Below, piece after piece: positions 2,545-57,354 of a stretch of 64,000 nucleotides of DNA. The stretch's first letter is position 1. Every line of letters starts with the position of its first letter. Under the pieces are notes generated by a model. The model was given only the letters and a program-made list of their open reading frames with translations. It was not told the DNA's origin and ran no database searches. The translations under genes and the position numbers were made by a program. Origin of the DNA: Astropecten irregularis (Eukaryota > Echinodermata > Asteroidea > Paxillosida > Astropectinidae); the NCBI GenBank assembly GCA_963971285.1, contig OZ020256.1, positions 1,552,501-1,616,500 of the forward strand, in the 5' to 3' direction.

Positions 2545-3447
2545 TCAAGCACTTAAAGGCGTGATGCGTCTCTCACGTAATTTCTCGTAGTACCTCATGG
2601 ATGCCTCCACGCAAGCCTGGACATCAACAGAAAGGCTCTCAAGAGTTGGAGGAGGCTGCGGACTCCCAAATCCGGTGCTTTTCAGTGCTTCAGTGAAAAA
2701 ACTTCCATTTTTGTCGGCGGCTGCCATTGTCTTGGGTGAAATCCACGTTTCAGTAATCGCATCCCCTGCTTCCCAAGACAGAAGATCCGGGCTGTAAGGG
2801 ATTCCCATCTTGTGACAGTAGGCAGACAAGATACCGGGAGGATCAGCAAGGAGGTCATCTGTGTCGAGAATGATTGGTTCCTTTTGGAGGTTCTTCTCTG
2901 AATACTCCACCAACTCGTACATCTCCTTGAAGCCACAGCCAGCAGGGAAAACACACTCTGGCAGTTCTTGCAGATTAATGTACTCTGCCAAAGCCTCGCC
3001 ATAAAGATCAAGCAGTAACCTTTTCCATGAGGAGAAAACCTTTGCTGGATGACGTATCAAGAAACTGTATCTAAAACCTCGAGGCAGCATATGGAACCTA
3101 GTTGCAGTGTAGAAGCACATGTCTTTACAAAACAAGATCTTCTTGTCCTCATAGGGTGCCTCCAGAAGTTGGTCACGTACCCAGGCGTAAGTGCATGCCT
3201 TTGGGTCAAAACCGCGGAAATGTTCAACTTCATTGATTTCAACGTCATTCACTTCATGGAAACGCCTCTCCACTGGGTTGTCCAAGTCCGGGTTTTGATT
3301 CTTTCTCTCGGGACCGGCATAGAAAGCACAGTTGTATGGTTCGTTCAAGACCTGGATGCCTTCGACGAAGCTGAGACATTTCAGGACGGCAGTGGATACC
3401 ATGCGAGGCACGCACCACAGAAACACTCGATTTAGATTGTCAGACAT
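2545..3447 (-). CDS. Sulfotransferase-like P-loop protein, copy A
   Basis: An intact intronless frame of 300 residues. Near the N-terminus (residues 12-20) is CVPRMVSTA, which resembles the PAPS 5'-phosphosulfate-binding loop of sulfotransferases. At 131-139 is IRHPAKVFS, which resembles the 3'-phosphate-binding motif (R..P....S). The conserved stretch at 197-218 (DDLLADPPGILSAYCHKMG) occurs in every copy of the cluster. From the family, a sulfonate-transfer or related P-loop role is inferred; no substrate can be named. Invertebrate relatives are often auto-named after plant proteins that fuse this domain to an aminotransferase, a domain absent here. The ATG gives the MSDNLNRV start shared by copies B and C. 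Copy A alone has Met16 where the others have Thr. A 12.2 kb transposon lies 62 bp upstream of its start codon. Confidence 0.85.
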   Translation of the reverse strand: MSDNLNRVFLWCVPRMVSTAVLKCLSFVEGIQVLNEPYNCAFYAGPERKNQNPDLDNPVERRFHEVNDVEINEVEHFRGFDPKACTYAWVRDQLLEAPYEDKKILFCKDMCFYTATRFHMLPRGFRYSFLIRHPAKVFSSWKRLLLDLYGEALAEYINLQELPECVFPAGCGFKEMYELVEYSEKNLQKEPIILDTDDLLADPPGILSAYCHKMGIPYSPDLLSWEAGDAITETWISPKTMAAADKNGSFFTEALKSTGFGSPQPPPTLESLSVDVQACVEASMRYYEKLRERRITPLSA

Positions 3448-3509
3448 CTTTTACGAGAGTCTGGGAAAATTCAATAGTCGTGCGTACAGGTTTAAAACCT
3501 ACAGGCCTA

Positions 3510-4200
3510 CACTGTAAAACTTTGAGCACTTGACGCGTTTATAATGTAAACACTTTGATGTCGGTAAACACAAGACATGTTTTTAACCTAAACACGTAAC
3601 ACCTTATAAACAATGACGCGTTTATCATCTGAACACTAAGTGTTTAAGCAATGCAAAAGCTTGAACAAAACGATGCAAATTGTCCAGCATTGCATACATA
3701 TAAACATAGTGTATATAGTTGATACACATGATAAACACCTGGCAATTTAATCTAACCATGTATGGTAGTAATTGTAAACACATTCAAATCTAAACACAAA
3801 GCTAAACATGCTGAAAGTGCAAAAATACTAAGAACGTGTGTTAAACAGTAAGTGTTTATACAGTGACTCCGAGATGGACGGTTGAGCATGGCGTATAATA
3901 AACACAATGACACGTTTTAACATATTATTCTCGCCGGCAAACACGTGCTTGGGGTTTAAAAAATAAACGTGTCTGACGTACGCCTCATAGAATTTCAAAA
4001 CTGAACATTGTTTGACATCAATGCTCCTGCTCAATACAATGATGCGTTTCCATTGCAAGGCTGCTAAACATCACGTTTAGGTAACGTACCTGAGAACACC
4101 TATATAAGCCATAACATAGGTTTGTTAAGTTCAATGTTCAGTAGTCTATTGTGTGAACGACCTTACTGTGTTGAAAGTATAAATATCGTGATTAAATGTA
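3510..4200 (+). repeat. Left subterminal repeat array of the 12.17 kb transposon
   Basis: Dense, irregular repetition of GTAAACAC, CTAAACAC, ACGCGTTTA and TGTTTAA words in both orientations. A motif near 3595-3622 (GTAACACCTTATAAACAATG) recurs inverted at the other end. Such arrays are transposase-binding regions in CACTA elements; that role is inferred here. Confidence 0.7.
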
Positions 4201-5133
4201 CGAAATACTAAACACAGCATTTAAACGGCGACGCCGTACAGCCTCCATAAATTTCCAGAAAGTTCCAATTCCTTCCAGAATGAAACGCCCGCCAAAAAGT
4301 ATCAATTTTTTTTGCATAAATTAACCGTACACGCTTGCCCTCGTTCGTGATTGGTTGTGGAGCAGGGGCGCGGCAGCGCGTGCGTGAACAACGTTTGTAT
4401 ATACTGTACATGTACAGTACATGGCCGGGTACGTACAGTACGTATATGTGCAACTTATAGTTACACTGTACCGTGTACACACAGCAGTGGTCGTCGACGC
4501 AACACACCGACACGATACACATCACAATTCAAGCAAGGGGGCTTCCATCTGTGCAGATTTATAGCAGGTATTGTGCATCTCTGTCATGGCCTAATCAAAT
4601 AAATTTCGTCCATTCACCTGGCTTGTATATATTGCAGATAATTTCAGAACTCCTTGTTGGCTTGACGGGCTTCTTACTCAGTCTTAACTGTCACTCTTTG
4701 TCTAAGCGCTAACCTTGGCTAATTTGGAATTTCTATTTTCAAGTTTCCATTCGCACGCTTCGGTAGTTAGGCTAACGTTAGAGTCAGAGGGAAGACTGTG
4801 TGCATATAAGTTAGACTTAGGCTAGGCCTAGTCTAGAGTTGAGGCCTAGGCTAGGCCTGCATGCGTGTGTAGGCTAGGCATAGAAGGAGTCCTCGCATAT
4901 TGTATTTCGCAGTACCCAGTGCAGTATTTGTTATCAATAAATAGGGCCTAACGTAGGGCTACAGGATCAGTTATAATGTCATTATTTGCAATGTTGAGTT
5001 AGGCTAGCCTGGCCCCATGTCAAGGGATGGATTAATCACGGTATTGTTCTTGTATTTTTTTGTCTCATTGACATTCGGTGATGTTACTGTTAGGCCTACC
5101 ACGGCTAGGCATAACGTTAGTACTGCCACTGGT
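4201..5133 (+). promoter_or_regulatory. Region upstream of transposon gene 1
   Basis: No convincing coding frame. It contains a GC-richer stretch around 4330-4520 and repeated TAGGCCTA / GTTAGGC words at 4800-5010. By position it must hold the promoter and 5' untranslated region of transposon gene 1. No TATA box or start site can be fixed from the sequence alone. Confidence 0.35.
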
Positions 5134-5167
5134 ATGAATATGATGGACGACAATGATCAGTTCAAAT
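5134..5167 (+). CDS. 5' piece of transposon gene 1, cut off by a nested insertion
   Basis: Encodes the start of the transposase-like protein (ATG at 5134, further in-frame ATGs at 5140 and 5143; residues MNMMDDNDQFK). The frame is open further up, to an ATG at 5017, but that extension looks like untranslated DNA. At AAAT (5164-5167) a 1.69 kb element interrupts the gene. The same AAAT recurs at 6856-6859, where the sequence continues in the same frame into the CSLC of the first zinc finger. Without the insert, 5134-5167 joined to 6860-9309 gives 827 codons plus a stop. Confidence 0.6.
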
Positions 5168-6855
5168 GTGACCCAATGGAGCGAAATGAGGTAAATCCCC
5201 CAAAAGTCAGTTTCGAGTTATCGCCGTCTGAAGTTGCTGAATCGCAGAATATAACTCCAACATCGATTTTTGCTTTTTTGTATTTTTGGATAGGAAAAGT
5301 ATCAAAGATTCACAGTGTTGATAATTATGTCAAAGAAATGTAAGGAAATTGGGTAAAAAGGAGGTTTTCTAGAACATGTTTGCAGTGTGTTTCTGTCTTC
5401 TTTTACAAAAACTAAAGAAAATCTCTCAAAATCTGACGTTATTTACAGCGCGTATTCATACTGATCTGTTTATGCCTGTGACGTGTATGTGGTATCATTG
5501 AAACGAGCGTTGACTCATCTTTCTATTAATAGCAATGAAATCATCACCAGGAACACCTTTACTCCATATCAATCCGCTGAAGTTTGTAAACAAAACATCG
5601 TAAGCGAAGTGAAATCACATCGTCTAGTTCGCGGCCAGGGCCCGCGTCATTCAAATACTTCTTTCTGATTGGACCGCTGCACGTACTGTTTACCTAGATA
5701 CGTGACGCGCACAGCGCTCGGCCAATCTCTGTGCGCGTAGAGCGCCACAGTCGCTAAGCGACATTCGTTCAGTGCGTGTACAGTATAGTAGTGCAGTGCA
5801 GTGTACAGTATGTGTATGTGCATGAACTGTATTCAATGTGCACTGTATACTATACTAGTAGAAAAGTGCCGTTCTAACACGACAACATTGCAATGTCTGC
5901 CATGTTTATAGCGTTGGAATACAGTTCGGATTTGCAAGGTTACCCTAACTTTTGGGGTTCTTATAGATTTTCGAATTTTGAGTACAGTAATTGTCATTTT
6001 TATTTGTGTACTTTTGTCAAATTTCACGGCTCATTTTGCCTTGTAAACCAAGGGAAATTTATTGCTAACTAACGTTAGGCCTACTGTATCGCTGCATACA
6101 AGTAACGTTGACAAAAATTCCCACGCTAAAATGAACAACTGGTTTGATGTTTTCTGACATGGTTCGGATCTAAATGACAAGGGTAAGAAAGATGTTCAGA
6201 CTGCATGAAGTCATTTTTAAACTAATTATTTTCATGGAAACAACTTAACTTGCAGTCACAGACCCTCGATAATTGGCAATGTTGATGTTATGATCCATTA
6301 TTCGCACACACTGAAACACAACATAAAGCAGTCACTGTGCTGACTATAATCACTGCACGGTCACTGATGACGTTAACAAAAATTCCCACGCTAAAATCAA
6401 CAACTCGTTTGAAGTTTTCTGACATGGTTCGGAGCTAAATGAAAAAGTCAATCAAGATAAATGTTATGACAACATGAAAGTCGTTTTTAGAATAATTATT
6501 TTCAAGGAAACATCTCATCTTGCATAGTGTCAGTGACAGAGACCCCCGGCAAAGTTGCTGTTGTGATCCGTTACTCGCACACAGACGTAGACGTAGACCA
6601 ACGTTGAACAGTCTGTCAAAAGCACTGCGACATGCGCTATGTGTGTAAAATCTTTGTAGTCATTTTTCTCGAAAAGTATTTTCTGAGTCTGAGCATAGCG
6701 GTGTTCTCTTTATCGGGTCATAACTTTGCAATGGAATGAGATATGAACATAATTTTGGTCTCATTGGAAAGCCCATGGATTACTCCTTCTAGTAGCGTAT
6801 ATAACTCAAAAAGTCAAATCTGGGGGATTTACCTCAATTTGCTGCATTGGGTCAC
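5168..6855. mobile_element. Nested 1.69 kb non-autonomous element inside transposon gene 1
   Basis: The ends are inverted copies. The left arm starts GTGACCCAATGGAGCGAAAT; the right arm, read in reverse, starts GTGACCCAATGCAGCAAATT. Similarity extends about 70 bp (5168-5238 and 6785-6855). The flanks are AAAT at 5164-5167 and 6856-6859. The duplication can also be read as CAAATG (5163-5168 and 6855-6860), so its length is 4-6 bp. No transposase is encoded. It contains a two-copy tandem repeat and a GC-richer patch around 5640-5800 with two ATTGG/CCAAT words. Superfamily not assigned. Confidence 0.8.
6105..6605 (+). repeat. Two-copy tandem duplication, period about 264 bp
   Basis: The words ACAAAAATTCCCACGCTAAA and TTTTCTGACATGGTTCGGA occur around 6115-6165 and again around 6375-6430. 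Each is followed by related text with CTAATTATTTTCA / ATAATTATTTTCA and then GATCC(A/G)TTA(T/C)TCGCACACA. The copies have diverged. The duplication lies within the nested 1.69 kb element. Confidence 0.6.
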
Positions 6856-9309
6856 AAATGTTCTTTGTGCTGCTTCAAAAGTAATTCATATGAGAAATTT
6901 ACTTCACATGTAGTAAGGTTGCATCGCCATGACGCTAATTTTGTTGTTTTCTGCAGTTTTGGGAACTGTTCGTACTCAAGTAAGAGCTGGGGAGCCTTTA
7001 AATCTCATATGAGTCGTAAACACTCCATCCAAAATGTGAATAATAATGCTGATGATGGTATGGCTAATTATGCTGATGTGCCTGAGGAAGATGATGACAA
7101 TGATGCTGAGGTTGCACAAATGTCTGAATTACAAATGACCAGAAATTATAACGCATCGTTTAGCCTCGCCTTGGAGTGTTCCCATAACTTGACACACTCT
7201 TCAGTTGACAGAGTAATTGAATCGGTTTCCTCTTTGATTGAGCAACATGTCTCTTTGTTCAAGGCCAAGGTTCTTGAAAAACTCCAAGAACAACGTATTC
7301 CATGTGGATTTTTGAATGCAATTTCGGTCGAGCATTTGCTTAATGAGATAAATACAAGGAAGAAACGAGACAAATTGTATGAACAGGCATACTTCTATGT
7401 TGCACCAAAAGCAGTAACACTTGGAGAAAAGTTTGTAACAGTCAAGGGTGTTCTACAGAAGAAGGATATTGATGGTTATTGTATTCCATTCACAGAAAGT
7501 CTAACAAACTTAGTGCAAATGCCAGATGTGTGGAAGTATATTACTAACCCACGTGACCCTTCATACTTCATGTACGATATTTCTGATGGTGAGTACGTAA
7601 GATCAGACCCATTATTCACAAGGAACCCCCAAGCGCTTCAGGTAATTCTTAACACCGATGATATTGAGATAGTCAACCCGATTGGGCATCACACCAAGAA
7701 GCACAAACTGACTATGTTCTATTACACATTGGCAAACATCCCACCTGAATATAGGTCACAGCTACACACTATACAACTTTTAGGTGTTGCTAGAAGTAAG
7801 GACATTAGAAAGTATGGACCTGGTGCTCTCTTGCAAGACTTTGTAAGTTGCATAAATAAACTAAGCTCAGGTGGTCTTGAGGTTGTGGTCAATGGTGTAA
7901 ATATGCATCTTGAAGGCAAACTTGTCATTGCACCTTGTGACACACCAGCAGCACAGTGGCTTGGGGGCTTCAAGGAAGGTGTTTCCTTTGCATTGCATGG
8001 TTGCAGGTGTTGTCAAGCTTCTCAGTGTGATATGAAACGAATGTTTGTTGAACAAGATTTTGTAATGCGAGAAGAAGGGGAGCACAGAAGAAGATGCCTT
8101 TCTCTTGATGGCTTGACTAAAGCTGCGAAGATGTACTGGAGTAAACGATGGGGCATAAATTCGGCAAGCTGTCTCCAGAGTATCAATGATTTCAGTATCT
8201 GCAGTGGTTTAGTTCAAGACCCTATGCATGTATTTTTGGAAGGTCTAATACCACATGAGTTGAAATACATGCTTTATGACTATATTGTGGTTTCCAAGTA
8301 TTTCACTTTGGAGTGGCTTAATGCAAGGATAGCCTCCTTCCCATATTCGTACCTTCATCTAGGGGCTAAGCCAGAAATCCTGGATAGGGCTCATATTGTT
8401 GGAGAAGGAAAACTAAAAGAAACATCTGCAGCTACTATGACCCTCATGTGCACATTGCCGTACATTTTATGTGAAAAGGTACCTCAGGGAGAACCTAAAT
8501 GGGTAAACTTTCTGCGGCTTGTGCAAATTACGCTCATTTCCACAAGTCCTTGTAGCAGCCAAATGACAGCTTCCGTGCTTGCTCAGCTTGTATATGAACA
8601 CCATACATCCTTCACTGCTCTCTATCCAAAGGGGAAGATTACTCCCAAGATGCATTATTGCATTCACCTTCCAAGGCAGATGATAAATTATGGCCCATTA
8701 AGACACCACTGGTGTATGCGTTTCGAGGCAAAACATGGGTTCTTCAAAACTAAAAAGTGGAGATGTTTCAAAAATCTTCCATTGAGCATCTGCCTGAAAC
8801 ATCAGAAGTACATGTGCTACAAGCAGTTGGGTTCACACGGTCATAAGTCAGAATCCTTTTTGTATTCTGGTGACACTGTCCGAGAGGGAAAGTCTGTTAA
8901 TTTACATGACGAGTACCCAGATCTAGTTGGTGGTATTGGTGCATATTTTGGTGTTGATCCTCAAGCTGAGAATGGTGTGCATCATGCTTACAAGACATCT
9001 AGTTTAACCATCCATGGACATGAGTACAGACCAGGCTGCTGTTTGGTCCTAGACTATAAAGATGATTTGCCACAATTCGGAATTTTGGAGGCCACTGTTG
9101 TCATCAACGATGAAAAATTTTTCATTGTTGAGTGCATGGACACTGAGTACTTTGATCTTCATGTTTTGTCTTACGTACTAAAGTCAAAACATGAATATTC
9201 GTGTGTTCATTTTTCACAGCTATTTTCAAAGTGGCCACTAAGTGTGTATAAGTATGCAGGAAAGAAGTGCGTAATCAATAAATACTCACACACATATGAG
9301 CTATTTTGA
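6847..9309 (+). CDS. Transposon gene 1: C2H2 zinc-finger CMC-like transposase, main part
   Basis: A single uninterrupted frame of 820 codons. The first codon here is TTG and there is no in-frame ATG before 7009, because the true start lies across the nested insertion (5134). Numbered from 6847, residues 5-26 and 36-59 are two C2H2 fingers (C-x2-C-x12-H-x4-H and C-x4-C-x12-H-x4-H), followed by an acidic linker (73-90). The core carries features described for CMC transposases: acidic D271/D272, a C-x2-C pair (C386, C389), D458 in DPMH (the D(2)H motif) and E627 in RFEAKH, giving a plausible DDE triad. From the family, it would bind element ends and catalyse cut-and-paste. The frame has no stops, but the insertion makes this copy probably inactive. 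Residue assignments are by eye. Confidence 0.75.
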   Translation: MGHKCSLCCFKSNSYEKFTSHVVRLHRHDANFVVFCSFGNCSYSSKSWGAFKSHMSRKHSIQNVNNNADDGMANYADVPEEDDDNDAEVAQMSELQMTRNYNASFSLALECSHNLTHSSVDRVIESVSSLIEQHVSLFKAKVLEKLQEQRIPCGFLNAISVEHLLNEINTRKKRDKLYEQAYFYVAPKAVTLGEKFVTVKGVLQKKDIDGYCIPFTESLTNLVQMPDVWKYITNPRDPSYFMYDISDGEYVRSDPLFTRNPQALQVILNTDDIEIVNPIGHHTKKHKLTMFYYTLANIPPEYRSQLHTIQLLGVARSKDIRKYGPGALLQDFVSCINKLSSGGLEVVVNGVNMHLEGKLVIAPCDTPAAQWLGGFKEGVSFALHGCRCCQASQCDMKRMFVEQDFVMREEGEHRRRCLSLDGLTKAAKMYWSKRWGINSASCLQSINDFSICSGLVQDPMHVFLEGLIPHELKYMLYDYIVVSKYFTLEWLNARIASFPYSYLHLGAKPEILDRAHIVGEGKLKETSAATMTLMCTLPYILCEKVPQGEPKWVNFLRLVQITLISTSPCSSQMTASVLAQLVYEHHTSFTALYPKGKITPKMHYCIHLPRQMINYGPLRHHWCMRFEAKHGFFKTKKWRCFKNLPLSICLKHQKYMCYKQLGSHGHKSESFLYSGDTVREGKSVNLHDEYPDLVGGIGAYFGVDPQAENGVHHAYKTSSLTIHGHEYRPGCCLVLDYKDDLPQFGILEATVVINDEKFFIVECMDTEYFDLHVLSYVLKSKHEYSCVHFSQLFSKWPLSVYKYAGKKCVINKYSHTYELF

Positions 9310-10200
9310 TAGCACAGACAAGGATCCCAACTACAGGGTTTCTGAAATGCTTGATGCATTTTCCATTTTTACTAGCTAGGGCTAATGGTGTACAGGTTAG
9401 TTGTTGAATTGGTTTTTTAAATTAGTAAACCAAGAGTGCAATTATGTTAATTAACAGTACACAGGTTTTTTTTTTGTTTTTTTAACAATAGTCAGAATTT
9501 CTGCTAATATAATTTATTAAGGGTGTGTGCAAAATTTGTAAAAGCTGTAAACAAATACTCCCTATTAATTATGATTTATGCAATATTTCCCCTACATGTG
9601 GCAGATCTGTATCCAGTGTGGGCAGACCCCGGGAATACCAATTGATTTAATACCCCTATTGGAATACTAATTGATTTCATTTAATATTGATAAACTAAAC
9701 TCAATCAACTAAACTAATGGTAAGGGTACTTCTAGTTATTGGAAATAGAAAAGGAGCAAACACAAAAAATATTGATCCGAGCCAAATTTGTAGATCCACA
9801 ATTGCATTTAAAATGAAAGATTAGGTTCCTAGAGCAGCTGAGCATAACAATTTGCTAAGCGCAAAAATGTTATTCACATTATATGATTTGTGATTGTCTC
9901 CTCATCGAATTTGCTCAACAAATAAATTTGTCGAGTAGTAATTTTAGCTGAGCAGCTAGCTATATGAAACTGGGTTAGGTTAGGATTGAGCACACAGTCT
10001 TGCAATCAGTGTCTATCTCTCCAAACGCTTACATGTTTTACTATTTAATTAGTCATGCATTAATTGCATGCACTTTTGATTACATTTGTGGCCGTTTGTA
10101 TAAAATCATGAGGTTTATCTACTGCGTGTTCTGTAAATTATCTGCAATATCCAACCTTTACATTATTTTTGTTGACACAGTCAAAGTATTTTCAGAGATC
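9310..10200 (+). other. Spacer between the two transposon genes
   Basis: About 0.9 kb, AT-rich. A poly-T tract lies near 9466-9482. No coding frame is convincing. It should contain the 3' end of gene 1 and the promoter of gene 2. A TTTTCAG at 10188-10194, just before the gene 2 ATG, could be a splice acceptor for an untranslated first exon. Confidence 0.4.
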
Positions 10201-10285
10201 ATGCCAGTGTATAAAATTTGGAGCTGTGACAGAAATGTGCGCAAAAGTGTCGTAGCCAGCAGCATTGAAGAGATGATTATAAAAG
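10201..10285 (+). CDS. Transposon gene 2, exon 1
   Basis: The ATG at 10201 has A at -3. The exon encodes the first half of the CIDE-N domain and ends AAAAG|GTATG, leaving one base of the next codon (phase 1). That matches the phase of the acceptor at 10801. Confidence 0.7.
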
Positions 10286-13200
10286 GTATGTTCTAGTTAA
10301 CCATTATCTGTGTGTCATTTGTAAGTTGTTGCTTAAACAAAAAACTTTAAAAAGCAAAAAAGAATAAGATCAAAGGGACCATATCCAGTGCTAGAAGGAC
10401 AAAGTGCACATTTTTGGTGTTCAAACATCATATTAATATGAACTAATTAAGATATAGTAAAGGATTGATGAAGCAGAGAGTGCGGCAAGAGAGAGCACAA
10501 TGTCTGATCGGCTTTGTTTGATTCAACATGTATGAAAGCAAACCTATTTAAACTCATCCATCCTGTAATCCGAGCCAGTAAAGACCATGCCTTTTATTAA
10601 GGATGTAGTGTTCTGCATGTGTTTCATCTGGCCCATTAAAAATATGGCGATTTTGGGTCTTCAAAAATTTCAAAGAAAAGAAAGCAGCATATTTTTAAAA
10701 CTAATTTCTCGACCTTGACATTTTTAGATGAACTTAAATACAATTAGGTTTGTATCAGTTTTATCTTTTCATTGTAAATTTGTCCTTGCAATCCTCACAG
10801 GCAAAGCTAAGTTTGACCTTGGCATCGAGTTTGACTCCCAGCGAATTGTCACTGAAGATGATGGTACCGAAATTGAAGACGACGAGGTCTTACAGGAGAT
10901 GGGAAGTGGAGCAACATTTATGTTACTGAACAACGGAGAAAGCTGGAAACCTGCCACAAGAACATCACCTCAAGACAAGACACCAGAGCAAGCTATGGAT
11001 GACACAACTCCTCCAGCCCCACAATCACAGGGTTCACCTGAAGCTCAAGTGTCTTCTAGTCATCGAGTAACCGAGTTTTCATCTCTACCAGTATTTAGCC
11101 CAAGGGTGTTGGAACATTTAAGGTCAGGGAAGGAGCACATGGTGTGGAGAGAACTCATTAATGAGGCAGCTAACCACTACACTGGCAAGCATCCACAACT
11201 GGGTAGCACTTCTGAATATTGTGCCATTGGCCGTAAAATGTTCTGCAGCTATCCGTCCATACAGCGGGAAGGAGAGCACGAATGGGTATGAACTGATTAA
11301 TGTAGGTTATTGGCAATCAGTGTGTTTTTGTGTAACCCACAGCATATTTAATATGCTGTAGATTACACAAAAACACACCAAGACCCCTCTAGCGAGGATG
11401 GCGTGCAAGCCTGAAGTGTGGGTGCAACACCATGCCTTTACCATTCGCTGGTTGGAAACTATGAAGCATTTAAATTTCTTTTTATCATTGGTGTATGTTA
11501 CACTCTTACATATTTTTTGTTTGTATTTTTGTTTGTATTTTCAATTTGATGCAGTCCTTTTTCACAAAGTGCCTCTCCCAAAGAATAAGGCATATTCGAT
11601 GGGCAGACAGGAAGAGGACTCCAACCGAGAATAGAAGTCATGGATCTGACAACTGTGCCTCTACTACTAAGAAACCTCGAGTAGTTCGTGTATCCTGCAC
11701 TTCAGATGGGTCATCAGATTTAGCATCGGAAGAGTACGAGAAGCACCTTGCTGAAATTCAAGTCGAGTGGGCCAAGGGACAAAAGAAGAATGATGCCCAT
11801 CTGAATCTCCTGCTCTCAGAATGTTTCAAGTCCAACCAGCAGTGGATCAAAGGGCTTCCAGACTCAAAGATTAAGCCAATTTTGGAAAAGATACCATGCT
11901 ATCAAGATGGGCAGATGGTAAGTACAATTTAACATGTTTTGCTCAAATTCAAAACAAATTAATTGACTCATGGTGTAAATGTGTGGTCCTTCAGAGTCTG
12001 TTGCCATGACCCCAGATTTCAATCCTGCAATGGAAAATCAGGTATATCATCAGACATTCAAACCATACATTGTTGGAGGAGGAAAATCATTTTGTCAATA
12101 ATGTTCTAAAATATTTCCCCCCAAAAAATGTTTCACAAGTTCTAAAAATTTGTTCAAATCTGACGTAAACTTGTGCAGACCAAATGACAGGGATGAGATT
12201 TCTCAGATTAAAGTCTGATTTCAGACTTTTTCCCTCAAAGGCTGTGTACAAAAGTATAGGAGATTCTAAATTCCAGACTTTTTATGCTCCCTGTCAGCTG
12301 TTTATAGAATTTTATATCATTGGTCAATCTCATCCCTGAAATGAGTTTGATGACAAATTGTAACTGGAGTAGTAACTTGTACCACTCATACCATTCATAT
12401 TCTCTTGTTTTGTTACCTTTTGTTCAACAGATCATTGGTGAGTTTCAGAGGATTCTTGGGGAGAAGCAGTTCGGCACACTTAAGAACAACATCAAGATGT
12501 TTTTGGCTGCCATAGAGGAGGCCTTGCATTTGTCGCCAACAGAGGTAAAGTTTTTGTGGTATACCTTTGTGTTCATCGTAAATTCATACCCCCCCCCCCC
12601 CCCCAGTCCCACTGGTGTTTATATTACTGCTCGAGGTGTCCTAAGAGAGCAAAGAATAGTTCCAACTTGCACAGGACCACATTGATTTCTAATTTTTTAT
12701 ACTGACCAATCTTCACCCCTTTTGAATCTGACTTCAGGAACCTGAGAGGACGGTTAAGATCATCGAACAGGTAGAGAAGGCAACAGCCTTTGACAAAGGG
12801 AAGGGTGTCAAAACGAAGAGAGTCATCACCATCATAGAGGTAATGAAACGTTCATATCTCTTTCCCATAATATGTTGGATGAATGAACATTTATTGATTG
12901 TGTACTTTCTTTTGCTGATGTAACTGGAAGGAAATTACAACAAATGTTCTGCTGTACACTAGCAATGAACAACTGGAAAACATTTCCATCATTGCTTCCT
13001 ACTACTCACTTGTTAATAATGGATCATCTCTAAAACAGTGTGCAACTTGACCTGGACTGGCAGTGTACAGTTGTACTCTTCTACATGTACTTGGTACATT
13101 CTTCAACTTATGCTTGCTTGTCTCAGATAAGGGACAACACAGCACATTCAACTCAATGTATTTCATTGTCACTGCAAAATGAAGCTTTAAATAAAGCAAT

Positions 13201-13792
13201 TTTATAGATGCCTGACCTATTTGCAGATGGCCTTACAATTTACTTTTAGAGCATGCTACTGTCAATGATGTCACGTGACTGCACAAAGATGTACATGTAG
13301 TGTACCATTGTGTTGATTGTTTGTGACTGACCAGGATATTTTTGTCAATAATAAGATCCATATTTACATTTTCCTGTTACATGGGGTACCCATTTTTACA
13401 ACAAAGTAACCATTATATTTCATTGTTATTTCATATTTTAGGACATTCCAGACAACGAGGTTGAAGTGGCCCTGAAAACTGGGGATAAGGATCCGCCAAG
13501 GCTGGTAATAATCAAGAGGGATGACAAGATAACAGCAATCTTCATTGTTGGCGATGGTGTACACATATCTTGCAAAGGCAACATGGTAACAAATGCAGTG
13601 ATCACTTTGTTAGGAGTGTATTATGTTTTTGACCTTGACTATCCGAAAATATATTCACAGATCCTAGGAATCCTTCAAAGTCATGTTGTAGGAGGACTGC
13701 CTTTTGAAGGGAAAAAAAGTGCCAAATACCGCACGTTCAATAACTTGCTTCTCAAAAAAATGGCACAGAAACGGTGCGGTAGTGAGAACTGA
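10201..13792 (+). CDS. Transposon gene 2: CIDE-N domain protein, six coding exons (whole span)
   Basis: The exons 10201-10285, 10801-11285, 11555-11917, 12431-12544, 12738-12839 and 13442-13792 all have GT-AG borders and join in phase to give about 499 residues. Residues 1-75 form a CIDE-N/CAD domain: VYKIWSCDRNVRKSVVASS, then IVTEDDGTEIEDDE, then ATFMLLNNGESW, matching the RPFRV..RTVRKG / LVLEEDGT / FMVLE.G..W pattern of DFF40, DFF45 and CIDE proteins. A Pro/Ser linker follows, then a conserved block (YCAIGRKMFCSYPSI, then FFTKCLSQRIRHIRW) and a C-terminal block (LLGVYYVFDLDYPKIYSQ) that I recall from uncharacterised animal proteins. CIDE-N domains pair with other CIDE-N domains, so a binding role is inferred. 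It lies in an element with gene 1 and may assist it. Confidence 0.75.
10801..11285 (+). CDS. Transposon gene 2, exon 2
   Basis: Acceptor ATCCTCACAG at 10791-10800; donor GG|GTATGA after 11285 (phase 0). It completes the CIDE-N domain (IVTEDDGTEIEDDE, LLNNGESW). It then adds a Pro/Ser/Gln-rich linker and the start of the conserved block containing IGRKMFCSYPSI. Confidence 0.75.
11320..11378. repeat. Near-perfect foldback in intron 2 of transposon gene 2
   Basis: GTGTGTTTTTGTGTAA (11320-11335) pairs exactly with TTACACAAAAACACAC (11363-11378). An inner ACAGCATAT / ATATGCTGT stem lies between them. The structure fills the middle of a 269 bp intron and would form a stable hairpin in the transcript. 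No function is known. Confidence 0.75.
11555..11917 (+). CDS. Transposon gene 2, exon 3
   Basis: Acceptor ATTTGATGCAG ending at 11554; donor ATG|GTAAGT after 11917; phase 0 at both ends. It encodes FFTKCLSQRIRHIRWADRKR, a basic segment, then a charged helix-rich stretch ending in ILEKIPCYQDGQM. Confidence 0.75.
12431..12544 (+). CDS. Transposon gene 2, exon 4
   Basis: Acceptor TTGTTCAACAG ending at 12430; donor GAG|GTAAAG after 12544; 38 codons, phase 0. It encodes IIGEFQRILGEKQFGTLKNN and a helical continuation. Confidence 0.7.
12738..12839 (+). CDS. Transposon gene 2, exon 5
   Basis: Acceptor CTGACTTCAG ending at 12737; donor GAG|GTAATG after 12839; 34 codons, phase 0. The encoded segment is highly charged (EPERTVKIIEQVEKA, then KTKRVITIIE). 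Confidence 0.7.
13442..13792 (+). CDS. Transposon gene 2, exon 6 (terminal)
   Basis: Acceptor TCATATTTTAG ending at 13441; 116 codons then TGA. It contains LVIIKRDDKITAIFIVGDG and LLGVYYVFDLDYPKIYSQ, the most conserved-looking C-terminal block. The short basic tail is KKMAQKRCGSEN. Confidence 0.7.
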   Translation, partial: DIPDNEVEVALKTGDKDPPRLVIIKRDDKITAIFIVGDGVHISCKGNMVTNAVITLLGVYYVFDLDYPKIYSQILGILQSHVVGGLPFEGKKSAKYRTFNNLLLKKMAQKRCGSEN

Positions 13793-15099
13793 GTCCAAAT
13801 AATGGTTCATAACACCCCACACAAAATTGTCATGCAATCTAAAAGGTTCATTAAATTATTTTCTCTTGATGCACATATTGATGTAATTACAAACAGCAAT
13901 TGGGTTTGAGGTAGTAGGTCACTGAAGCTATAAAAAAACGAATGGCTGAGACCGCTGAGTACCGAGCAGCTGCAGTTTGGCGGATGCAGTTTTATGCTCT
14001 TTCAAGCAATGACAAGACCAAATCAATGTATGGGGTGTTACAATAACCATTATAAGACATGTGGGTAGTTAACAGAATAATAGCCAGCCATGAACATGTA
14101 TGCACTTGTAATCATTATGTAAGTTCCCTTTTGAAATCAAGGAATCTTAATATTTAGATAGAATAATGTTTTTGATTGCTTATGTTGTTCTCCTTTAAAG
14201 GTACTTGTTTTAAAAAAATTCATAAAGTGCCAAAAACTTGATACTTTCATATTGTGGGTAACATTAAGATTCACTTACATATTTACCTTTGAATTCCAGT
14301 TCCGTTGTTTCGAGTGAATTAAGCAATGTTGAACATTTTAGAGTAATTAGTGTCATCTAGTGCTAGAAAATACATGTGTACATCTGAAAGATATGATTTA
14401 ACTTGAGTGATGACATCGCCAGCTTCAGAGTACTTAAAAGTGTATTAACAAAAATCTGTAAATTGTCAAGTTTAAAAATAATTCATACTAAAATGCTTCT
14501 TCATGTTGAGTTTGGATAATGTTTTAAAGTTTAGGCACTGGAGAAATAGCCGGCATCTGTTTTGACAGCTAACACTTTTTAAAGTGATTTACTGCGAAAT
14601 CCAGTAAAGATTTTCCCTTGTTTTTTTATGTGATACAATGCTCTAAAGGTGCCACACCGTGCATTTCAAAACTACTATTTATAGGGTCGTATTTGACATA
14701 CATCTCGGCAAATCGTTTTTGACCTTACTAAAGGCTAATTTGCGTTCGCCTTAATTTTAGGTGTATTCTGGAAGAGCAAAAGAAAACTACAAAATTAAAT
14801 GAAAGCAACGAAGTAGGTCAAAAAAGACTCAATTTTCACATGTGCATTTTAGTGCTGCTAGTGTTCAGTGTTTGTTATGCAGAGTTTCAGTAATCAATCG
14901 TCAGTGTTTAAAGTTAATATTCTATTATAAATATTGTAGACTGTTATCATGACATTGTGGTTGATGTCATCTTGGTTTTCTTCCATTTAAATCAAACTAG
15001 CAGGAGGCTGGGAGGAAAAATACTTTCATATCGTGGAGAGGATTGCCAATTCAATGTGTCTGTGCCTGCAGTGTGATTAAGGTCTACTATTGTTTCGAT
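13793..15099 (+). other. 3' non-coding part of the 12.17 kb transposon
   Basis: About 1.3 kb without a credible coding frame, between the stop of gene 2 and the right subterminal repeats. AT-rich with scattered T-runs. I see no gene in it. Confidence 0.5.
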
Positions 15100-15679
15100 T
15101 ATTGCATGTTAAACGTTTAAACACTGGTAACAGCTTCTTGTGAAAGCTGTCTAAACACCCGTTATGTTTAGATTTAATAGAACGGTTTGGAAAATTGTAA
15201 ATGCTTAAGCGTTTTATAGCTAAACTCAATGTGCTTAAATAATAACTACGTATTATTTTCAGTAATTACATAAACACCTATAAGGTTATAAACACGTCAC
15301 AGTGTTTAAAAAGTGTTACAGGTCGTAAACAGGTCAAAGTGTTTATCAGTAAACATCTAAACACATGTTAAACACTTGGTAAATGCCATTAACGTTTAAA
15401 TATGGAACATATTAATAATTCATAAACATGTTGAAATGTTTACAATTTAAACACAGTGAGTTTATAAAATAAACGTTCGTGTGTTCTTGAAAATAATAAA
15501 CGCGTGGAATCGTTTAGTCTTTAAACATGTCTGTGTTTACAGGAAAACATTTATGGGTTTAGTTGTTAAATGTTCGAGCTCTAAACGCAGTTTATTAAAA
15601 ACACGTCACAATGTTTATAAAGTGTTACGTTTTTGCGTTTATATAAGTGTTTAGATCCTGAACACATGGTTTTACAGTG
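15100..15679 (+). repeat. Right subterminal repeat array of the 12.17 kb transposon
   Basis: Dense TTTAAACAC, GTGTTTA, AAACACGTCACA and ATAAAC words in both orientations. The stretch near 15600-15632, read in reverse (CGTAACACTTTATAAACATT), matches the left-end motif near 3595. The array ends GTTTTACAGTG. Confidence 0.7.
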
Positions 15680-15899
15680 TAGGCCTATTTATCATCGATA
15701 TAAATACATAATAGGTCAACACTGTACATGTATAATATCAAGGCTACTCTCGGGGTTAATGCATCTGGAATTATGTCTAGTTTCTGCCGTTGGAAATGTA
15801 CAATCGACGTGTACAATGAATAGGCCTACTGAACCTTGACAGTGCGGAGGTGGTGTGCGCGAATGGCAGCAGACATATTATATTTGGATACGGTTGGCG
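15680..15899 (-). other. Upstream flank of copy A, displaced by the transposon
   Basis: This is the sequence that lay directly upstream of copy A before the 12.17 kb insertion. It matches 18895-19060 (upstream of B) and 21560-21780 (upstream of C), for example TTTCTGCCGTTGGAAATGTA and GCCTACTGAACCTTGACAG. No coding frame. Confidence 0.75.
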
Positions 15900-15907
15900 G
15901 TTAAGTC

Positions 15908-16358
15908 CACTGATCTATACAAACTGGATAGGTCGCGCTGCTCTGCAGGTGAAGCATCCGTGCAGCCATTTTGGGATATTCAATACATACACGGGTTTAC
16001 ACCATGGCGGCCATCTTGGATTTTGATCGCAACTTCAAAACGAGGCACTTCCACGCGTGCGCACTTTTCTAAGTGTAAGCCCGTCCATTGTCGAAGACAA
16101 TACACGGGTTTACACTTCGGCAGTTTTGATCGCCACTTCGAAACGAGGCACTATCACGCATGCGCTTTTTTGGAAGTGTAAACCCGTGTATTGGCAGGCG
16201 CGGCAGCCGGCGTATACAGAGAATTGCTGCACTGCTTGCTGTGCAGTCATGCAGTGCAATGAGTATTGTGCTGAATATCCTAACATAGCCGCTGGTGACT
16301 TCACGGCTCGCCGTGTAATCACTGCACCCGCGACCTATCCAGTTTGTATAGATCAGTG
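15908..16358. mobile_element. 451 bp MITE with 30 bp perfect inverted ends and 8 bp target duplication
   Basis: The ends begin CACTGATCTATACAAACTGG and match for 30 bp (15908-15937 and 16329-16358, inverted). The flanking duplication is GTTAAGTC at 15900-15907 and 16359-16366. Copy C's upstream flank has a single GTTAAGTC at 21783-21790 in otherwise matching sequence, so it is an empty site. The interior holds two related palindromic modules (about 15990-16085 and 16101-16190), each bounded by ACACGGGTTTACAC-type arms. An 8 bp duplication is typical of hAT and P superfamilies. No transposase is encoded. Confidence 0.9.
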
Positions 16359-17922: not shown

Positions 17923-18825
17923 TCAAGCACATAAAGATGTGATGCGTCTCTCACGCAGCTTCTCGTAGTACCCCATGGATGCCTCCACGCAAGCCTGGAC
18001 ATCAGCAGGAAGGCTCTCAAGAGCTGGAGGAGGCTCCGGACTCCCAAATCCGGTGCTCTGCAGGGCTTTGTTGAAAAAACCTCCATTTTTGTTTGCGGCA
18101 GCCAGTGTCTTGGATGAAATCCACGTTTCAGTAATCGCATTCCCTGCTTCCCAAGACAGAAGGTCCGGGCTGTAAGAGATTCCCATCTTGTGACAGTATG
18201 CAGACAAGATACCGTGAGGATCAGCAAGGAGGTCATCTGTGTCGAGAATGATTGGCTCCTTTTGGAGGTTCTTCTCTGCATACTCCACCAACTCGTACAT
18301 CTCCTTGAAGCCATATCCAGCAGGAAAAGCACACTCTGGCAGTTCTTGCAGATTAATGTACTCTGCCAAAGCCTCGCCATAAAGATGAAGCAGTACCTTT
18401 TTCCAAGAAGAGAACACCTTTGCCGGATGACGTATCAAGAAACTGTATCTGAAATCTCTAGGCAGCATATGGTACCAAGATGCAGTGTGGTAGCACATGT
18501 CTTTACAAAACAAGATCTTCTTGTCCTCATAGGGTGCCTCCAGAAGTTGATCACGTACCCAGGCGTAGGTGCATACCTTTGCGTCAAAACCGCGGACATG
18601 TTCGACTTCATTGATTGTAACGTCATTCACTTCAACGAAACGTCTCTCCAACGGGTTGTCCAAGTCCGGGTTTTGATTCTTTCTCTCGGGACCCGAAAAG
18701 AAGGCACAGTTGTACGGTTCGTTCAAGACCTGGATGTCTTCGACGAAGCTGAGACATTTCAGGACGGCAGTGGACACCGTGCGAGGCACGCACCACAGAA
18801 ACACCCTATTTAGACTGTCGGACAT
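17923..18825 (-). CDS. Sulfotransferase-like P-loop protein, copy B
   Basis: An intact intronless frame. I chose the ATG at 18825 (MSDSLNRV) because it matches copies A and C and gives 300 residues; an in-frame ATG at 18882 would add 19 residues with no counterpart in the paralogues. It has the P-loop CVPRTVSTA and the RHPAKVFSSW motif. Within the cluster, B and C are very close to each other and A is slightly further. Its upstream flank (18895-18896) keeps the uninterrupted transposon target site. Function as for copy A: a sulfonate-transfer type P-loop enzyme by homology, substrate unknown. Confidence 0.85.
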   Translation of the reverse strand: MSDSLNRVFLWCVPRTVSTAVLKCLSFVEDIQVLNEPYNCAFFSGPERKNQNPDLDNPLERRFVEVNDVTINEVEHVRGFDAKVCTYAWVRDQLLEAPYEDKKILFCKDMCYHTASWYHMLPRDFRYSFLIRHPAKVFSSWKKVLLHLYGEALAEYINLQELPECAFPAGYGFKEMYELVEYAEKNLQKEPIILDTDDLLADPHGILSAYCHKMGISYSPDLLSWEAGNAITETWISSKTLAAANKNGGFFNKALQSTGFGSPEPPPALESLPADVQACVEASMGYYEKLRERRITSLCA

Positions 18826-20594
18826 CTTTTCCGCGAGTCTGGCAACATTCATTAGTCGTATATAGTTTATGTTCAGGTTCAAAACCTACAGGCCTAGGCC
18901 TATTTATCATCGATATAAATACATAATAGGTCTACACTGTACATGTAGTATCAAGCGTGCTCTCGGGGTTTATGCATCTGTAATATGTCTAGTTTCTGCC
19001 GTTGAAAATGTACAATCGACTTGTACAATGAATATATAGGCCTACTGAACCTTGACAGGTCATGTCACAGTTGGTCGACATGTTACCCAACACGTTTTGC
19101 TCTGTGTACACTGTAAACATTTTTAGCAACAAGGTATATACCATGGGCATTGGGCAACATGTGATAGCGAGTTTTTACCGAAAATGTTGGCAGTGTACAC
19201 TCTGCTTTAGTTAACACATAACGTAGGCACATGCATGTAATATGAGCATAAGATTAATTGAATGATTTATTACTGCATGTACCCATGATGTGCGTGTTTT
19301 TTGTGGGTTTTTTGGTGGTTTTTTTTTTTTTACAAATAAAGCACCCGTGGGATGCTTTTGTGCATTTGGAAAGAGAACATCAAATTAGGCTTTCATCCTT
19401 GCGACTTACTTTTTTGGAAGAACTTTAGTATTATTTTATTTTTATTCAAATCTCAAATCTAACAGGAATTTTCACAAACTCGATGCCGCTTAAATTAGTA
19501 TATGCGAGAACTTGACAAAATAAGCGAATTTGTGCAGGCCCCTATCGGCTGTTTGTACTTTATTTCGATTTTACAACCTTAAGGATATACTGCGACTGAC
19601 ATGTGTTTTCCAAACTTCCAAAGCAGTTTTTCAAATATAATTATGCATGACGAACATTTCGATTTCAATTAAATTGAATTTTAAAAGAAAATTTTTTCAT
19701 TCTAAATCTATAGGCTGTATGCATGGTCTCGAACCTGACCAATCGCAAAGAGATATCACAGGAAGAACTATGTGTTAATAATGATGACTATATCCAACCT
19801 AATCTGACTAATGAAAAAAATGGATGTTCCAATAGGCCTTAATTAAACTAACTAACAAACTTTAAACTAACTGCACATAACTGTCTAACCATATTCTCCT
19901 CCCCAAACCAGCTATTAAACCCAATATAAAACATAAAACACGCCTATCACAGAGCAAACCAGAACTTAGCTAGATGATTATGCACCCCCATCAAGTACTT
20001 AAGAATGGTCCATATAGTTGAATCATGTACCGAGTCTTAAAGCCTTCAAAGAGCACAACCTCGGCTTTGGCTTCGGCTCAGGCTTAGTCACCGTCATCAC
20101 GCGATAGCTAAAAAACAAGGGTACCTGTTTTTTGTTGAAGTTGGAACTTCGTTTCCGTATTAAATGAAAGATCCTTTCAGTTTCTTGTATGGAGCCGTAG
20201 CCGAGTGCCTCTACTTTGACGATCCTTCCATTTAGGAGCCCAAGTTTTCAAAAGTAATGACATTAACAGGGTTCGGATGGAGTTATTGTCTATATCCATG
20301 TGTCTGACAAACAAAAATATTATCATTATCGACGAAGCTTTATGCCTGAGAAATATTCTTGGCTCTGTGAGCTAGACTCATGAGTTGTTTAGAACATAAC
20401 TTTAGGTTGATCGAATGCTTGTCTTTCATCATTGAACTATTTAGTTCCACTGGTTTTTGCCCGAAACAATGCTATGCTGAAAAGAGCTAAAATCTCCATA
20501 ATGACTATCCGATGTAAGAAGTCTGTGATCATACTATGATTTGATACCTAATTGTGATTCTAAGCTGTTATGTTGTTATAAGAATTGCTTTACT
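18826..20594. other. Spacer between copies B and C; no gene seen
   Basis: Contains the upstream flank of B (to about 19056), then the repeat of the unit spacer first seen at 16404. B and C stop codons lie 2,672 bp apart, which is the unit length. Short poly-T tract at 19318-19331. Confidence 0.6.
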
Positions 20595-21497
20595 TCAAGC
20601 ACTTAAAGATGTGATGCGTCTCTCACGCAGCTTCTCGTAGTACCCCATGGATGCCTCCACGCAAGCCTGGACATCAGCAGGAAGGCTATCAAGAGCTGGA
20701 GGAGGCTCCGGACTCCCAAATCCGGTGCTCTGCAGGGCTTTGTTGTAAAAACCTCCATTTTTGTTTGCGGCAGCCAGTGTCTTGGATGAAATCCACGTTT
20801 CAGAAATCGCATTCCCTGCTTCCCAAGACAGAAGGTCCGGGCTGTAAGGGATTCCCATCTTGTGACAGTAGGCAGACAAGATACCTGGAGGATCAGCAAG
20901 GAGGTCATCTGTGTCGAGAATGATTGGTTCCTTTTTGAGGCTCTTCTCTGCATACTCCACCAACTCGTACATCTCCTTGAAGCCATATCCATCAGGAAAA
21001 ACACACTCTGGCAGTTCTTGCAGATTGATGTACTCTGCCAAAGCCTCGCCATAAAGATCAAGCAGTAACTTTTTCCAAGAAGGGAACACCTTTGCTGGAT
21101 GACGTATCAGGAAACTATATTTGAAATCTCGAGGCAGCATATGGAACCTAGATGCAGTGAAGTAGCACATGTCTCTACAAAACAAGATCTTCTTGTCATC
21201 GTAGGGTGCCTCCAGAAGTTGATCACGTACCCAGGCGTAAGTGCACACCTTTTCATCAAAACCGCGGACATGCTCAACTTCATTGCGTTTAACGTCATAG
21301 ACTTCAACCTGACGTCTCTCTATCGGGTTGTTCATGTCCGGGTTTTGATTCTTTCTCTCGGGACCCGCATAGAAAGCACAATCGTACGGTTCGTTTAGGA
21401 TCTGGATGCCTTCGACGAAGCTGAGACATTTCAGAACGGCAGTGGATACCGTGCGAGGCACGCACCACAGAAACACTCGATTTAGATTGTCAGACAT
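20595..21497 (-). CDS. Sulfotransferase-like P-loop protein, copy C
   Basis: An intact intronless frame of 300 residues, starting MSDNLNRV with an ATG at 21497. P-loop CVPRTVSTA at 12-20; RHPAKVFPSW near 132-141, where one Ser of the usual SSW is Pro. The conserved DDLLADPPGILSAYCHKMG stretch is present. Its upstream flank provides empty sites for both the 12.17 kb transposon and the 451 bp MITE found in unit A. Biochemical role as inferred for copy A. Confidence 0.85.
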   Translation of the reverse strand: MSDNLNRVFLWCVPRTVSTAVLKCLSFVEGIQILNEPYDCAFYAGPERKNQNPDMNNPIERRQVEVYDVKRNEVEHVRGFDEKVCTYAWVRDQLLEAPYDDKKILFCRDMCYFTASRFHMLPRDFKYSFLIRHPAKVFPSWKKLLLDLYGEALAEYINLQELPECVFPDGYGFKEMYELVEYAEKSLKKEPIILDTDDLLADPPGILSAYCHKMGIPYSPDLLSWEAGNAISETWISSKTLAAANKNGGFYNKALQSTGFGSPEPPPALDSLPADVQACVEASMGYYEKLRERRITSLSA

Positions 21498-22102
21498 CTT
21501 TTACGCGAGTGTGGGGAAATTCAATAGTCCTGCGTATACAGGTTTAAAACCTACAGGCCTAGGCCTGTATCATCGATATAAATACACGTAGGCCAACACT
21601 GTACATGAAGTATGCTTTCATTGGTTAATGCATCATGCATTTGTAATAATTATGTCTAGTTTATGCCGTTGGAAATGTACAATCGACTTGTACAATGAAT
21701 ATATAGGCTTACTGAACCTTGACAGTGTTGAGGTGGTGTCCGCAAATGGGAGCAGACATATTATATTTGGATACGGTTGGCGGTTAAGTCCCAGCCATGG
21801 AGCGTACAGGCGCAGCGGCAGGCTTACTTGTCATTTTATATAACATCACAAACAGTACAAATTATATACACATGTAGGCCTACAGTGTATACATGTCACA
21901 TGGTGTTACCGCAAACCTATACGCCTTATTGGCGCATCCATTTTGTCACCTTGTCTACCCTTTGGAAAACACCAATTCTAAAAAGAAGAAAACGGGTACC
22001 AAACTATTTTGAATCCAAGCCTCGGTTTGATTACACTGCTTCGAATGCAGGATGGATGCATCGTAAATAAGGCTTATAAGCAACGTATCTTATTGCTTTA
22101 CT
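21498..22102. other. Upstream flank of copy C and unit boundary; no gene seen
   Basis: Up to about 21835 this matches the upstream flanks of A and B. It then changes to unrelated sequence containing ACATGGTGTTACCGCAAACC, which has a diverged relative near 26828. Confidence 0.55.
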
Positions 22103-53900: not shown

Positions 53901-54104
53901 ACCCCTTGTCATTTTTGCCATTTTTTTCAAAAATTTACTTTTTCTCAAAGTGTTTCAATCATCCTAATAGTTGTCTCAGATCACAAAGAACCCATTTCTA
54001 GTATGAAAACTGGTCTATTTCTCATCTGCAAGGGGAATTTTTCTTCATATTCTTGCTGCATAATTATGTACATTACCATGATTACATGTAAGCTATCATC
54101 AATC

Positions 54105-56950
54105 ACACACAGGCTTCATACGTATATCATCAATCACAGACAAGCTTCATACGTATATCTACCATCAATCACAGACAAGCTTCATACGTCTATCTACCAT
54201 CAATCACAGCCGACAAGCTTCATACGTCTATCTATCATCAATCACAGACAAGCTTCATACATATATCTACCATCAATCACAGACAAGCTTCATACGTCTA
54301 TCTACCATCAATCACAGAAAAGGCTTCATACGTCTATCTACCATCAATCACAGACAAGCTTCATACGTCCATCTACCATCAATCACAGACAAGCTTCATA
54401 CGTATATCTACCATCTGGCATCAATCACAGACAAGCTTCATACGTCTATCTACCATCAATCACAGACAAGCTTCATACGTCTATCTACCATCAATCACAG
54501 ACAAGCTTCATACGTATATCTATCATCAATCACAGACAAGCTTCATACGTCTATCTACCATCAATCACAGACAAGCTTCATACGTATATCTACCATCAAT
54601 CACAGACAAGCTTCATACGTCTATCTACCATCAATCACAGACAAGCTTCATACGTGTATCTACCATCAATCACAGACAAGCTTCATACGTCTATCTACCA
54701 TCAATCACAGACAAGCTATACGTCTATCTACCATCAATCACAGACATATCTATCATCAATCACAGACAAGCTTCATACGTATATCTACCATCAATCACAG
54801 ACAAGCCTCATACGTCTATTCTACCATCAATCACAGACAAGCTTCATACGTCTATCTACCATCAATCACAGACAAGCTTCATACGTCTATCTACCATCAA
54901 TCACAGACAAGCTTCATCCGTCTATCTACCATTAATCACAGACAAGCTTCATACGTATATCTACCATCAATCACAGACAAGCTTCATATGTCTATCTACC
55001 ATCAATCACAGACAAGCTTCATACGTATATCTATCATCAATCACAGACAAGCTTCATACGTATATCTACCATCAATCACAGACAAGCCTCATACGTCTAT
55101 TCTACCATCAATCACATACAAGCTTCATACGTCTATCTACCATCAATCACAGACAAGCTTCATACGTCTATCTACCATCAATCACAGACAAGCTTCATCC
55201 GTCTATCTACCATCAATCACAGACAAGCTTCATACGTATATCTACCATCAATCACAGACAAGCTTCATACGTCTATCTACCATCAATCACAGACAAGCTT
55301 CATACGTCTATCTACCATCAATCACAGACAAGCTTCATACGTCTATCTACCATCAATCACAGACAAGCTTCATACGTATATCTACCATCAATCACAGACA
55401 AGCTTCATACGTATATCTACCATCAATCACAGACAAGCTTCGTACGTCTATCTACCATCAATCAGAGACAAGCTTCATACGTATATCTATCATCAATCAC
55501 AGACAAGCTTCATACGTATATCTATCATCAATCACAGACAAGCTTCATACGTATATCTATCATCAATCACAGACAAGCTTCATACGTATATCTATCATCA
55601 ATCACAGACAAGCTTCATACGTCTATCTACCATCAATCACAGACAAGCTTCATACGTCTATCTACCATCAATCACAGACAAGCTTCGTACGTATATCTAT
55701 CATCAATCACAGACAAGCTTCATACGTCTATCTACCATCAATCACAGACAAGCTTCATACGTCTATCTACCATCAATCACAGACAAGCTTCATACGTATA
55801 TCTATCATCAATCACAGACAAGCTTCGTACGTATATCTACCATCAATCACAGACAAGCTTCATACGTCTATCTACCATCAATCACAGACAAGCTTCATAC
55901 GTCTATCTACCATCAATCACAGACAAGCTTCATACGTCTATTCTATCATCAATCACAGACAAGCTTCATCCGTCTATCTACCATCAATCACAGACAAGCT
56001 TCATACGTCTATCTACCATCAATCAGAGACAAGCTTCATACGTATATCTATCATCAATCACAGACAAGCTTCATACGTATATCTATCATCAATCACAGAC
56101 AAGCTTCATACGTATATCTATCATCAATCACAGACAAGCTTCATACGTATATCTATCATCAATCACAGACAAGCTTCATACGTATATCTATCATCAATCA
56201 CAGACAAGCTTCATACGTCTATCTACCATCAATCACAGACAAGCTTCATACGTCTATCTACCATCAATCACAGACAAGCTTCATACGTCTATTCTATCAT
56301 CAATCACAGACAAGCTTCATCCGTCTATCTACCATCAATCACAGACAAGCTTCATACGTCTATCTACCATCAATCAGAGACAAGCTTCATACGTATATCT
56401 ATCATCAATCACAGACAAGCTTCATACGTATATCTATCATCAATCACAGACAAGCTTCATACGTATATCTATCATCAATCACAGACAAGCTTCATACGTA
56501 TATCTATCATCAATCACAGACAAGCTTCATACGTCTATCTACCATCAATCACAGACAAGCTTCATACGTATATCTATCATCAATCACAGACAAGCTTCGT
56601 ACGTATATCTACCATCAATCACAGACAAGCTTCATACGTCTATCTACCATCAATCACAGACAAGCTTCGTACGTCTATCTACCATCAATCAGAGACAAGC
56701 TTCATACGTATATCTATCATCAATCACAGACAGGCTTCATACGTATATCTATCATCAATCACAGACAAGCTTCATACGTATATCTATCATCAATCACAGA
56801 CAAGCTTCATACGTATATCTATCATCAATCACAGACAAGCTTCATACGTATATCTATCATCAATCACACACAAGGTTCATATATACGTATATCTACCATC
56901 AATCACACACAGGCTTCATACGTATAGCTACCATCAATCACACACGCTTC
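54105..56950 (+). repeat. 35-bp minisatellite, about 81 copies
   Basis: The unit is ATCAATCACAGACAAGCTTC followed by ATACGT(A/C)TATCTA(C/T)C, 35 bp. Two main variants alternate (GTCTATCTACC and GTATATCTATC). Because 35 is not a multiple of three and the unit has no plus-strand stop in any frame, very long open frames result (for example 54988-56958). These are an artefact rather than genes. Rare variants (CAGAGACAAG at 55463, 56024, 56375, 56690; TATTCTATC at 55937 and 56288) show a higher-order period of 351 bp. Confidence 0.95.
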
Positions 56951-57350: not shown

Positions 57351-57354
57351 CATG

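Follow-up and report, generated by a model that had tools for sequence, protein, structure and literature searches.

Which kind of transposon occupies positions 3510–15679 of a 64,000-nucleotide stretch of Astropecten irregularis DNA (the window; assembly GCA_963971285.1, contig OZ020256.1, positions 1,552,501 to 1,616,500), and how might its two genes bring about its movement? The element, approximately 12 kb long, very probably belongs to the cut-and-paste transposons of the CMC group, EnSpm/CACTA type, and carries an accessory gene with a CIDE-N domain. Both of its outer ends are precisely defined by the following features:

3508–3509: left target-site duplication, TA
3510–3520, plus strand: left terminal inverted repeat, 11 bp, CACTGTAAAAC
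15669–15679, minus strand: right terminal inverted repeat, 11 bp, exact reverse complement of CACTGTAAAAC
15680–15681: right target-site duplication, TA

Each terminal 11-mer has a single plus-strand occurrence across the window, and no second copy of the element was found in it (blastn to 1e-5). The ends read CACTG..CAGTG with a TA duplication (compared with the rule in PMC12730594). The two ends are alike at 17 of their first 31 positions, including the terminal 11, and the inverted repeat is short because they diverge beyond that point. A perfect inverted repeat of 18 bp takes in the element ends together with 7 bp of flanking DNA at either end (3503–3509 and 15680–15686), because the target is itself a 12-bp palindrome (AGGCCTAGGCCT) centred on the TA.

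The element has two genes. Gene 1 is the catalytic DDE transposase and gene 2 an accessory protein with CIDE-N at its front:

5140–9309, plus strand: gene 1, RAG1-like CMC transposase, interrupted by a nested insertion
5169–6854: nested insertion within the first zinc finger of gene 1; length 1,686 bp
8869–9273, plus strand: C-terminal BAH-like domain of gene 1, recognised by fold only, at residues 670–804 of the 815-aa reading
10201–13792, plus strand: gene 2, 499 aa, six exons (10201–10285, 10801–11285, 11555–11917, 12431–12544, 12738–12839 and 13442–13792)
10210–10949, plus strand: CIDE-N domain, residues 4–78 of gene 2, split by intron 1

The start codon of gene 1 was set by its nearest relative, P0001 (an in-frame ATG is also present at 5134), and the uninterrupted part, 6862–9306, was used for the searches. 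C2H2 zinc fingers in front are followed by a RAG1/Transib-like core and the BAH-like tail; in the predicted structure the tail has the BAH fold. The alignment comprised the window sequence and 58 of 77 relatives, the other 19, mostly partial, being omitted by eye, and the transposase membership rule of PMC12730594 holds in all 59 sequences. Among the 25 of 58 matching Pfam families that were listed, Transposase_21 and DUF4218 matched weakly in 5 and 32 of the 59 members respectively, with none in the window copy. Gene 1 differs from RAG1 and Transib in its low identity to them (9–14% in aligned rows), in the fingers in front and in the tail behind. Relatives in Acanthaster planci are 91% (gene 1) and 89% (gene 2) identical; the longest contig given for either protein is 1,640,093 bases, an agreement suggesting that the two genes lie together in that species as well. 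The other named relatives of gene 1 or gene 2 come from the echinoderms Lytechinus, Anneissia and Patiria, the mollusc Solemya and the rotifer Brachionus. Taken by themselves, these relatives point to a starfish as the probable host, although transposon proteins can pass from one species to another. A viral or prokaryotic source of gene 1 gained no support from viral contigs, phages and plasmids: 140 pattern matches to gene 1 in viral contigs yielded 0 confirmed cases, the phage search gave no match, and 3510–4500 had no match in plasmids.

The nested insertion has inverted ends (TGACCCAATG), a candidate 6-bp duplication (CAAATG) and internal repeats that are 78% alike (6105–6310 and 6370–6583). 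Read from its left part, gene 1 runs into a stop at 5341–5343, while P0001 is uninterrupted across this place, and inspection of the insertion borders alone revealed no intron signals there. This copy therefore lacks the uninterrupted transposase gene of an autonomous transposon and, unless the insertion is spliced out, could move only by using the protein of an intact copy elsewhere. The sequence-only reading had described a complete two-gene transposon with these ends, this length and a TA duplication. The CACTGTAAAAC pair and the flanking TAs agree with its boundaries, and its gene count is right, gene 2 having six exons; the element is indeed a large, exactly delimited two-gene DNA transposon. 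It is complete in structure only, since 5169–6854 breaks the coding sequence of gene 1, and the superfamily, the CIDE-N domain and the BAH-like tail had gone unnoticed.

Short repeats are concentrated near both ends, in two stretches picked by eye:

3510–4209: left subterminal repeat region, 9 TAAACAC/GTGTTTA in 700 bp
15080–15679: right subterminal repeat region, 11 TAAACAC/GTGTTTA in 600 bp

The same motif occurs 3 times in the 10.87 kb between these arrays. In 500 dinucleotide shuffles per end, it appeared on average 0.47 times on the left and 0.59 times on the right, with a maximum of 3 on either side. Tc1/mariner transposons also make TA duplications; that identity was set aside, and the subterminal arrays and the transposase motif fit CMC.

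The element resembles plant EnSpm/CACTA transposons, such as maize Spm with its proteins TNPD and TNPA, in its CAC..GTG ends, its subterminal arrays and the combination of a transposase with a second protein. Spm has subterminal arrays of short repeats, and TNPA binds them. Under strict EnSpm/CACTA criteria the arrays are present and the 3-bp duplication is absent, being 2-bp TA here; the CACTG ends and the CIDE-N start of the second protein are further differences. Spm requires both proteins: TNPA acts on the promoter of the element, and TNPD interacts with TNPA and stabilises its binding to DNA (PMC1636069). Gene 2 is likened to TNPA by its place in the element. TRC elements (SmTRC1 and its relatives), the animal and fungal CACTA superfamily (PMC1636069, PMC4298943), likewise combine an animal CACTA-type transposase with a 2-bp duplication and additional proteins, but their ends begin with CCC (PMC1636069), whereas the ends here begin with CACTG. 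The ESTA elements are EnSpm-like and share the TA duplication and the CMCT catalytic motif, a likeness of description; unlike the present element they are fungal, and three of their families carry a TET/JBP dioxygenase (PMC12730594).

CIDE-N (PF02017) was detected in gene 2 with 65.6 bits against a curated cut-off of 23.5. The domain resembles those of DREP2, CIDE-A, FSP27 and DFF40/45 in sequence, fold and charged faces, although these are host apoptosis or lipid-droplet proteins and gene 2 is borne by a transposon. The window copy retains all nine interface charges and both charged faces, and by reading all nine are also present in the Lytechinus protein, which is 41% identical overall. Pfam revealed no other family in gene 2, and thus no nuclease domain. 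Five relatives of gene 2 were found, and searching again with an alignment of gene 2 returned only the same five. One of them, P0078 of Acanthaster planci (annotated at 648 aa), carries a tandem duplication of the final part of gene 2. Intron 2 of the window gene contains a near-perfect 59-bp hairpin (11320–11378).

We propose that the gene 2 protein would act like TNPA of maize Spm and recognise the subterminal TAAACAC repeats, and that its CIDE-N domains would stack head to tail, bridging the arrays of the two ends. With the arrays bridged, the transposase would be recruited and would cut at the CACTG ends and insert the element at a TA. That gene 2 binds DNA, forms filaments and bridges the ends is suggested by analogy: gene 2 occupies the place of TNPA, and a filament domain could link many bound copies and so join the ends. 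This working is offered tentatively, as a proposal slightly more apt to fail than to hold. The BAH-like tail may read chromatin, and a fuller scheme, in which the transposon has taken over modules of chromatin and cell death and CIDE-N polymerises along the subterminal arrays to pair the ends while the BAH-like reader steers insertion to particular chromatin, is rather unlikely.

Several observations weigh against the identification or the working. The ends are CACTG rather than CACTA, and the duplication has 2 bp against the 3 bp given for EnSpm. Taken alone, gene 1 of the window matches no Pfam family. Among the matches listed, seemingly irrelevant families reached E-values similar to those of the relevant ones in some members (Actin_micro in 9 members, best 7.6e-4; ADNP_N in 7, best 5.8e-4). 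The Foldseek match of the tail to BAH is weak (E 0.013), and a Pfam BAH match was found in none of the four gene 1 tails tried (the window and three of the 58). Beyond CIDE-N and one helical stretch, gene 2 was predicted with low confidence (mean predicted local distance difference test score 52.3, from 5 sequences). Moreover, keeping the charged faces is not specific, because such faces are common among CIDE-N domains, and two of the five relatives have no precomputed CIDE-N: P0079 retains just the end of the domain and P0081 begins past it.

The lack of a full CIDE-N in these two proteins would also be expected if gene 2 were a fast-changing accessory with a ubiquitin-like front that is CIDE-N by chance, its oligomerisation being weak and unimportant. 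The second proteins of SmTRC1, which unlike gene 2 are reported to have no detectable relatives in other elements, are called rapidly evolving in PMC1636069 and agree with such a history. We consider it possible, if on the unlikely side; the nine charges kept in the window copy, and in a Lytechinus protein as distant as 41% identity, speak against it. The same two charged faces might suit a different partner: faces of opposite charge mediate the pairing of CIDE domains in DFF40/DFF45 and in the DREP proteins of the fly (PMC8647176). Gene 2 might target the host, blocking or mimicking the DFF/CIDE apoptotic nuclease system and thereby keeping cells with transposition damage alive. This is quite unlikely: CIDE-N is fused to about 400 conserved residues in a gene beside the transposase, the element has TNPA-like arrays, gene 2 has no nuclease domain by Pfam, and a role in assembly is simpler.

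When did the element arrive? The insertion point is 62 bp upstream of the start codon predicted for copy A (open reading frame (ORF) 2545–3447, minus strand), one of three copies, A, B and C, that match Sulfotransfer_5, and two unoccupied counterparts are present in the window:

18895–18896: empty site upstream of copy B
21560–21561: empty site upstream of copy C

When the left flank, ending at 3509, is joined to the right flank, starting at 15682, the resulting sequence aligns across the junction with copy B (18780–19058, 86.5%) and with copy C (21452–21791, 86.2%), and both of these contain the junction bases CAGGCCTAGGCC. The clean rejoining claimed from the sequence alone is thereby borne out. 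The sequence-only claim that the element moved after the A/B/C duplications stands by parsimony: the simplest history is that the element entered copy A after copy A had split from B and C. The reverse order, in which the element is older than the duplications and was lost from B and C by excision, is highly improbable. It requires two perfect, footprint-free excisions, and no excision footprint was found at either empty site; if the element had left B and C precisely, or if gene conversion had removed it from them, two events would likewise be needed. TAs centred in 12-bp palindromes number 20 among the 4,665 TAs of the window, both empty sites included; as this is a single insertion event, no preference for palindromes is claimed.

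Copies A, B and C are the first three of a minus-strand array of six similar ORFs (2545–30860), the remaining three being 72–75% similar to copy A at the DNA level. A second insertion has entered the flank of copy A, a 451-bp miniature element (15908–16358) missing from copy C at 21783. Its inverted ends of about 30 bp are perfect, and an 8-bp duplication (GTTAAGTC, at 15900 and 16359) makes it hAT-like by duplication length. Elsewhere, the window contains a 2.85-kb satellite with a 35-bp unit and strong GC skew (54093–56942) and a tandem array of AACTACTGGGGG-type units (57353–58203).

The element is an exactly bounded animal CACTA-type element. The 2006 survey of TRC elements had sea urchin among its matches and defined ends only in fluke, mosquito and beetle (PMC1636069). 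A transposon with CIDE-N is not described in the titles and abstract starts of the open-licence literature searched (Repbase lay outside the search), nor did that literature yield a paper on a BAH domain with CACTA; open-licence literature alone is weak evidence of absence. In the genome paper on Hydra viridissima (PMC7642931), CIDE-N stands among the Hydra-enriched domains, with 10 and 7 genes against 1–3 in the other five columns, and transposase domains are enriched in the same listing. This enrichment would fit transposon-borne CIDE-N genes beyond echinoderms. The filament domain of apoptotic nucleases is present within a mobile element, and the proposed working is a testable mechanism for the pairing of CACTA ends. 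If the fuller scheme with the BAH-like reader is true, the expanded CIDE-N genes of animal genomes would in part be transposon genes.
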